Assembly (NCBI RefSeq): GCF_000725345.1
Contig: NZ_CP008852.1
Span: forward strand, 1,269,693-1,333,692
Direction of reading: 5' to 3'
Length of the DNA: 64,000 bases
Origin: Pelosinus sp. UFO1
GTDB taxonomy: Bacteria > Bacillota > Negativicutes > DSM-13327
In this document: positions 34,457 to 60,463 of the stretch, one piece after another
Layout: each line of letters opens with the position of its first letter
Position numbering within the stretch: the stretch's first letter is position 1
The notes under the pieces: model-generated
Databases searched by the model: none
Told to the model about the DNA's origin: nothing
Seen by the model: the letters and a program-made list of their open reading frames with translations, nothing else
Translations under genes and position numbers: made by a program

Positions 34457-35077
34457 ATGGAAGTTAAGCATCCTGAATGGTTACAGATTCAATCAGATAA
34501 CCAAACATTATATGGTTACAATCAGGAGTGGTATAAGACTTCGTTTCAAAGAACGAGGGGCTGCGGACCAACAGCTGCTGCCATGTTGCTTTTATATCTG
34601 AATAAACGAGTAATAGAATCTCTGCCATACCAGGGCCATAGTATTCCTGCTATAACAAAGGTACTTGAAGACGTATGGAATTTTGTTACTCCTGGATGGT
34701 TGCTAGGACTGAATAGCACTAACAAGTTTTGTAAGGGTATGGAGGCTCTTTTGAGGCATTATAGGCTAGCTTGGCGATGTCATGTACTGAGCATTCCTAT
34801 GTTTAGATCTAGTCGGCCATCCCTTACGAAAGTTGTAAAGTTTTTGGAAGAGGGGATTGCTTCAGATTGTCCCATCGCATTTTTAAACCTTCACAAAGGG
34901 CGAGAGATAGCCTTGGAGAGCTGGCATTGGATTGTGCTAATCGCTTTATCCTATGATGCAGAACAGAAACGTTATATTGCTACCTGTTATGATGGAGGCC
35001 GCTTGGTTACATTTGATGTAGGTCTATGGCTGGAAACTAGCAGCTTCGGGGGCGGTTTTGTCTATATAACAGTTTGA
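34457..35077 (+). CDS. C39-like cysteine-peptidase-fold protein, cytoplasmic
   Basis: 206 residues. RGCGPTAAAMLLLYL near residue 37 has the Cys-Gly-Pro helix of papain-like C39-type peptidases, SWHWIVLIAL near residue 155 supplies the His, and CYDGG or a later Asp could complete the site. There is no signal peptide and no ABC-transporter partner, so it is not a normal bacteriocin-processing C39 protease. Substrate unknown. AAAGGGGGAG precedes the ATG. Confidence 0.65.
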   Translation: MEVKHPEWLQIQSDNQTLYGYNQEWYKTSFQRTRGCGPTAAAMLLLYLNKRVIESLPYQGHSIPAITKVLEDVWNFVTPGWLLGLNSTNKFCKGMEALLRHYRLAWRCHVLSIPMFRSSRPSLTKVVKFLEEGIASDCPIAFLNLHKGREIALESWHWIVLIALSYDAEQKRYIATCYDGGRLVTFDVGLWLETSSFGGGFVYITV

Positions 35078-35100: not shown

Positions 35101-35135
35101 ATGCAGCCAACCTACGAAAGGTGGCTGCATCTTTT
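35101..35135 (+). terminator. Terminator after the C39-like gene
   Basis: ATGCAGCCAACCT (35101-35113) pairs with AGGTGGCTGCAT (35119-35130), followed by CTTTT. The dispersed repeat begins directly at its T run. Confidence 0.8.
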
Positions 35136-35233
35136 ACGGAATCAGAAAGTATAACACTTTCTTGATTCCAAGTAAGAACGACTAAGGCTTCTGCCTGCGT
35201 CCGAGGATTTGGCACAAGCAAGTCTTTTCTTAT
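35132..35233 (+). repeat. Dispersed structured repeat, copy A (102 bases)
   Basis: Almost identical to copy B at 60359-60463: differences are one substitution and three missing bases. Internal structure: hairpin 1 GGAATCAGAAAGT/ACTTTCTTGATTCC, hairpin 2 AGGC/GCCT, hairpin 3 GACTTGGC/GCCAAGTC (weaker in this copy) followed by TTTTCTTAT. It begins in the T run of a terminator and lies between convergent genes. Confidence 0.9.
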
Positions 35234-35237
35234 ATAA

Positions 35238-35366
35238 TTAGGGTCTTTGAGGTTTCCTCTGTGTGTTAACTGTTCGGTCACTTCTCCGGTTGGAAACATC
35301 TTTAGGATCACCGAAAGTGACCTTTTTAGAATTAGCGACGATTTTCTGTTTATGTACAATATCCAT
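35238..35366 (-). CDS. 42-residue basic protein of unknown function
   Basis: GGGAGGTGAT lies just before ATG 35366, an excellent ribosome site, and the frame runs to TAA at 35240-35238. The product is strongly basic (many K and R; VTFGDPKDVSNRRSDRT) with no hydrophobic segment. It ends five bases from repeat copy A. I do not recognise it; a nucleic-acid-binding or spore-associated peptide would fit its charge but this is a guess. Confidence 0.5.
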   Translation of the reverse strand: MDIVHKQKIVANSKKVTFGDPKDVSNRRSDRTVNTQRKPQRP

Positions 35367-60314: not shown

Positions 60315-60362
60315 ATCGTAAAGTACCCTTACCAAAAAGGCGAGAGTACTTTACGATTTTTT
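60315..60362 (+). terminator. Terminator of the MacAB-like operon
   Basis: ATCGTAAAGTAC (60315-60326) pairs exactly with GTACTTTACGAT (60346-60357) followed by six Ts. Repeat copy B begins in this T run. Confidence 0.85.
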
Positions 60363-60463
60363 ACGGAATCAGAAAGTATAACACTTTCTTGATTCCAAGT
60401 AAGAACGACTAAGGCTTCTGCCTGCGTGTCCGAGGACTTGGCACAAGCCAAGTCTTTTCTTAT
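60359..60463 (+). repeat. Dispersed structured repeat, copy B (105 bases)
   Basis: Sister of copy A at 35132. Here hairpin 3 is perfect: GACTTGGC-ACAA-GCCAAGTC followed by TTTTCTTAT, a terminator-like end. It starts in the T run of the preceding terminator, and its right end supplies the stop codon (60460-60462, minus strand) of the HxlR gene. Confidence 0.9.

Follow-up and report, generated by a model that had tools for sequence, protein, structure and literature searches.

An element of 96–99 nt (about 98 nt; C GGAATC...TTTTCTTA), without terminal inverted repeats and without coding capacity, very probably moves within the genome of Pelosinus sp. UFO1 and targets intrinsic terminators. Two copies, A and B (Table 1), lie in the window, the whole stretch of 64,000 nt that was analysed; its source genome (G000) is a single contig of 5,115,410 bases. 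The sequence-only reading, an earlier inspection of these 64,000 nt, had described a repeat present twice and had proposed either a mobile miniature element targeting terminators or a small RNA or 3'-end processing element. Both copies were confirmed, a single substitution and three bases of indels being all that separates them. The first proposal was borne out by copy number, clean empty sites, hairpin enrichment in one orientation, tandem insertions and covariation. The sequence-only reading placed the left ends in the T-run of the preceding terminator, as was seen at copy A (terminator stem TGCAGCC...GGCTGCA, then CTTTTA) and copy B (ATCGTAAAGTAC...GTACTTTACGAT, then TTTTTA). Its statement that the right end touches the stop of an opposing gene held for copy B, where the terminal TTA (60460-60462) is the minus-strand TAA stop of an opposing HxlR-type regulator gene; copy A ends 5 bases short of such a stop. 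The convergent setting likewise applies to copy B, and to copy A only if a small opposing ORF is counted; this reading frame (35238-35363, minus strand, about 42 aa) has a clear ribosome site and ends 5 bases from copy A.

Table 1. Coordinates of the two element copies in the window, of the host terminators in front of them and of the parts of copy A.
Feature	Position	Strand	Sequence or extent	Remark
Copy A	35137..35232	+	96 nt, C GGAATC ... TTTTC TTA	ends refined by empty-site comparison
Host intrinsic terminator upstream of copy A	35102..35136	+	hairpin and T-run CTTTTA	gene ends at 35077; target site of copy A
Left-end hairpin, copy A	35138..35169	+	GGAATCAGAAAGT..ACTTTCTTGATTCC	fold and covariation
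Putative guide, copy A	35172..35178	+	GTAAGAA	complementary to left-flank T-run and right end
Middle hairpin (GAC..GTC), copy A	35180..35201	+	GACTAAGGCTTCTGCCTGCGTC	fold and covariation
Right-end terminator-like hairpin, copy A	35205..35232	+	then TTTTCTTA	fold and covariation
Copy B	60364..60462	+	99 nt	
Host intrinsic terminator preceding copy B	60335..60363	+	3' arm and T-run	hairpin start near 60318

A sequence search of G000 with the element returned 41 scored places, and a search with a 19-base core pattern gave about 125 copies (66 forward, 59 reverse) against 2 and 3 for the pattern read backwards. This genome-wide search, which the sequence-only reading had recommended, thus went far beyond the two copies in the window; the case that it had named against itself, only two copies and no covariation, was not what was found, and a simple recent duplication was ruled out by the copy number. 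Full-length copies (104, from 1.09 Mb of G000) were read individually, and all counts of target and context given for G000 rest on these; their median identity to the consensus was 97%, and 12 were identical to it. One copy (1176391) had decayed through an internal deletion. The stretch of G000 from 1.749 to 2.561 Mb (0.81 Mb, opposite dnaA at 4.754 Mb) is empty of the exact-core copies listed (chance ~1e-5 with all gaps allowed for).

Occupied and empty sites were compared over 360 kb between G000 and the close genome G006, and clean pairs were obtained; the sequence-only reading had suggested such a comparison with related strains. Most sites, including that of copy A, were common to both genomes and several were polymorphic. 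In the cleanest pair a consensus-identical copy occupies C1:280143 of G006 and the corresponding position 1077204 of G000 is empty (junction between GCTGTTTTA and TTTTTATAC); the flanks of the two sites match at 97.5 and 100%. Positions 1183571, 1045759 and 1060220 are additional candidates for empty sites. In these pairs the whole unit was inserted directly after the terminator T-run (between TTTTA and T) without target-site duplication. Across the 104 copies the base preceding the element was A in 79% and G in 20%, and the right end was TTA in about 97% regardless of the left base. The final TTA does not vary when a G precedes the element, and so is not a duplicated target; a DDE-type MITE was rejected on this ground and for the lack of inverted repeats. 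Tandem copies were found in G000 (1511232/1511329). Elsewhere, in G006, a second repeat family (described below) is represented by a member of 148 nt that lies cleanly behind a copy's own terminator and is absent at the G000 counterpart, and at one further site G000 and G006 carry different families at the identical point.

For the mapping of insertion sites, also suggested by the sequence-only reading, a strong hairpin was defined as one below -10 kcal/mol that ends at the T-run directly upstream. Such a hairpin preceded 84 of the 104 copies (81%), compared with 21% of 1189 intergenic T-run sites (Fisher p ~7e-35), and was present at 11.5% of all T-run sites and in 5/104 downstream flanks; about 20% of copies were without one. 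By a crude ORF call, a same-strand gene lay upstream of 84/104 copies and an opposing gene downstream of 59/104, the stop codon of the latter often being the element's own TTA. The gene upstream was an opposing one for 20 copies, of which 11 were oriented with and 9 against the replication fork. Orientation follows gene direction and not replication, and targeting of a replication strand was rejected since gene direction accounts for the bias.

From left to right, the left-flank T-run with A or G is followed by C, the left hairpin, AA, the heptamer GTAAGAA, the middle hairpin, the right hairpin (GACTTGGC-ACAA-GCCAAGTC), TTTTCTTA and T (84%). The three hairpins of the sequence-only reading, the last of them terminator-like, were recovered in a consensus RNA fold of -43.8 kcal/mol, far below shuffled sequences (-19.3 +/- 3.3 kcal/mol, z = -7.5). 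The hairpin structure is supported by covariation. Using 26 divergent copies taken from several genomes, four helices were scored (that of the left hairpin with a lower stem of T-run and guide, two nested ones in the middle and that of the right hairpin); 87.8% of pairs were kept (slid controls 38-53%) and 28 two-sided changes were counted versus 13.3 in shuffles. Rfam covariance models gave no match to the element, and a known RNA family was rejected on that basis; plasmid, phage and viral collections gave no match either. Both the left flank TTTTTA together with C1 of the element and the right end TTCTTA are complementary to the heptamer GTAAGAA, which is here called the putative guide. In 208 copies a T-type guide (GTAAG) went with a right-end A in 131/133 cases and a C-type guide (GCAAG) with a right-end G in 34/35; genome G009 mixes guide types, and in G008 a shorter form of about 80 nt occurs, which has GCAAGGG and the right end TTTTCTATG. 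In the same 208 copies C-type guides were accompanied by a shift of the target base from A towards G (p = 0.0027 stratified by genome), and this association was modest once tandem insertions behind other elements had been removed (p = 0.013). The co-change of the right end could reflect inheritance within subfamilies; the shift of the target base cannot easily be explained in this way and is modest in size. Taken together, the guide variants may be read as moderate evidence for guide-directed cleavage.

Copies were numerous in G000, G006, G009, G008 and G003, the highest-copy relatives reaching about as many as G000; five further genomes of the same genus contained very few. A degenerate core pattern searched in GTDB genomes matched only Pelosinus, Sporomusaceae and Bacillota/Clostridia MAGs, and a longer exact pattern searched in genome contigs gave no match. 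A decayed relative without the 5' arm of the left hairpin was seen in four low-copy genomes (G007, G005, G002 and G001; L337-L340, around 1501-1574) at one and the same place, between a SCIFF peptide gene and the next ORF, which is about 450 aa long and presumably encodes the maturase. In G017 and G034, which belong to another family of the class (L036, L038, L052, L053), each genome has five to six divergent relatives; these share the extra flank CGGATTTTAG..GGCAATTTTTCAC, so that their repeat unit may be larger. The second repeat family (TGGTATCAGAATTTATAAGTTTCTAG ... AAAAAGGACGCGTAGCGTTTTTCTTA, about 130-160 nt) was found at 22 places in G000 between 29273 and 5069464 (L195-L216; for example 1069599-1069755). 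It has a variable interior and the same kind of right end, follows the same terminator rule and often lies directly behind a first-family copy. Some of its copies are mosaics with other repeats, and it is absent between 1.22 and 3.19 Mb of G000.

A mobiliser was sought in G000 and in relatives. G000 encodes a single Y1 (IS200-like) protein, at 398045; it has 253 aa, and its C-terminal part gave a weak HTH match. Neither an element copy nor a flanking repeat lies beside its gene, and a REPtron was rejected accordingly. The protein resembles the HTH-bearing subclass 2.1, for which published searches found no link to REPs (PMC6006769). In the Y1-bearing genomes examined, the best Y1 locus of each had no element ends next to it, and in 40 relatives Y1 counts did not track element counts (no Y1 and about 80 element candidates in G008; 10 Y1 and few elements in G004). 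TnpB (PF07282) and reverse transcriptase (PF00078) were not found in G000; TnpB with omega RNA was rejected for the former, and a group II intron (IIC) for the latter together with the negative Rfam search. No transposase was linked to any copy. The search for an autonomous relative with the same ends returned only partial matches in G008, which are the shorter form, and distant single copies in other families. We infer a mobiliser, and the single-strand DNA mechanism set out here draws on the anatomy and the guide of the element, not on an enzyme.

For this non-autonomous element of about 98 nt a HUH-like, guide-directed mechanism is the reading that we favour, with reserve, from its anatomy. 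The element inserts as a unit and in fixed orientation just 3' of the T-run of an intrinsic terminator (between hairpin-TTTTT[A/G] and T) without target-site duplication. It would move as single-stranded, folded DNA, like IS200/IS605 and REP elements. A HUH-type nuclease acting in trans would recognise hairpin, T-run and TTA at the right end (hairpin-TTTTCTTA) and the corresponding hairpin-TTTTTA at the target, with the GTAAGAA heptamer selecting both cleavage points through base pairing. The element's own terminator would become a target for further copies and would leave host termination intact; accumulation would be possible because each element ends in such a terminator. Whether a single internal guide pairs both with host T-runs and with the element's own right end, and thereby makes terminators a programmable landing site for an enzyme yet to be recognised, is a more tentative matter, and we regard it as possible but rather doubtful.

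A different chemistry is unlikely, in which a reverse transcriptase or group IIC-like machinery supplied in trans, or an IS110-type guided recombinase, would recognise the terminator hairpin and the T-run, and the element RNA or a guide RNA would pair with the T-run as in EBS1-IBS1. It would agree with the insertion of group IIC introns behind terminators, and the target rule with a G-U-tolerant guide pairing (A or G opposite T) would suit an RNA guide too; moreover, IS1111/IS110 elements choose sites, folded ones included (attC, REP), by RNA (PMC11187229). However, the host genome has no PF00078 match, a group II intron would be far larger than the element, which matches no Rfam model, and the second family keeps its ends and varies its interior, which fits the DNA ends of the HUH-like mechanism better.

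Selection has also to be weighed. Copies might have spread long ago and now be retained at gene ends as a host-useful 3' element, be it an extra terminator, an mRNA stabiliser or an sRNA. The strong fold with its covariation and the location at gene 3' ends would agree with this, as would the divergence of copies shared by G000 and G006 (2.2% versus 5.0% in adjacent flanks, p = 0.0006, one decayed copy left out); mild constraint on shared copies is possible, but gene conversion could also reduce their divergence. Polymorphic sites with clean empty counterparts, young consensus-identical copies, the decayed copy at 1176391, the fifth or so of copies that lack a strong upstream hairpin and the near absence of the element from close relatives of the same genus all count against it, and we consider this explanation improbable. 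The sRNA or 3'-end processing role offered by the sequence-only reading may thus persist as a secondary effect and does not explain the spread. Insertion without any target preference, followed by selection that keeps harmless gene-end sites, resembles the filtering proposed for pneumococcal repeats (PMC3049150), but selection cannot fix a junction beside a T-run in one orientation. With hairpins at 21% of intergenic T-run controls against 81% of copies, and with different elements at the same site in two genomes, it is very improbable.

In a compact bacterial genome, a site directly behind an intrinsic terminator offers a near-neutral safe harbour. About 100 genes of this organism bear a second, transposon-borne terminator at the 3' end. 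If the landing site were programmed by the guide, re-coding the guide would change it, which could yield a small, retargetable insertion system. A small element that located such sites through a hairpin together with guide pairing would link REP-type repeats, the guides of IS200/IS605 and terminator-seeking group II introns.

No terminator-targeting element of comparable kind was found in the literature searched. The element shares with IS200/IS605 (IS608, ISDra2) and their non-autonomous derivatives subterminal hairpins, the lack of inverted repeats and of target duplication and an insertion point on the 3' side of a short T-rich motif; its putative guide may also correspond to theirs in pairing with the cleavage site. 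It differs in the hairpin at the target, in that neither a transposase-bearing relative nor TnpB was found, and in a single guide for both ends that lies 3' of the left hairpin (5' in IS608). The element is without replication-strand bias, unlike IS608 and ISDra2, whose target is the lagging-strand template. Group IIC introns insert directly behind terminator hairpins and pair with the target T-run; the element resembles them in its insertion site and, through its putative guide, perhaps in the pairing, but they comprise a ribozyme and a reverse transcriptase and measure about 600 nt or more; the element has about 98 nt, no Rfam match and a host without reverse transcriptase. REP/REPIN sequences with TnpA-REP (RAYT) are likewise short, palindromic, non-coding intergenic repeats with folded ends in more than 100 copies, and their conserved tag GTAG, which may act as a guide, stands beside a hairpin like the similar GTAAG of the element (PMC8266576). 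Unlike these, the element has two unlike end hairpins, defined ends within about 98 nt, terminator-specific insertion as a unit and no REPtron arrangement. SPRITE of Streptococcus pneumoniae is a small repeat with a terminator-like hairpin; it is over-represented at the 3' ends of genes and between convergent ones, and it clusters with other repeat families (PMC3049150). In the hairpin, the gene-end location and the clustering it resembles the element; a sequence relation is not known, and the description consulted mentions neither insertion at host-terminator T-runs nor a guide (PMC3049150). The element is best placed, as a variant, among the small non-autonomous mobile repeats represented by REP and SPRITE.
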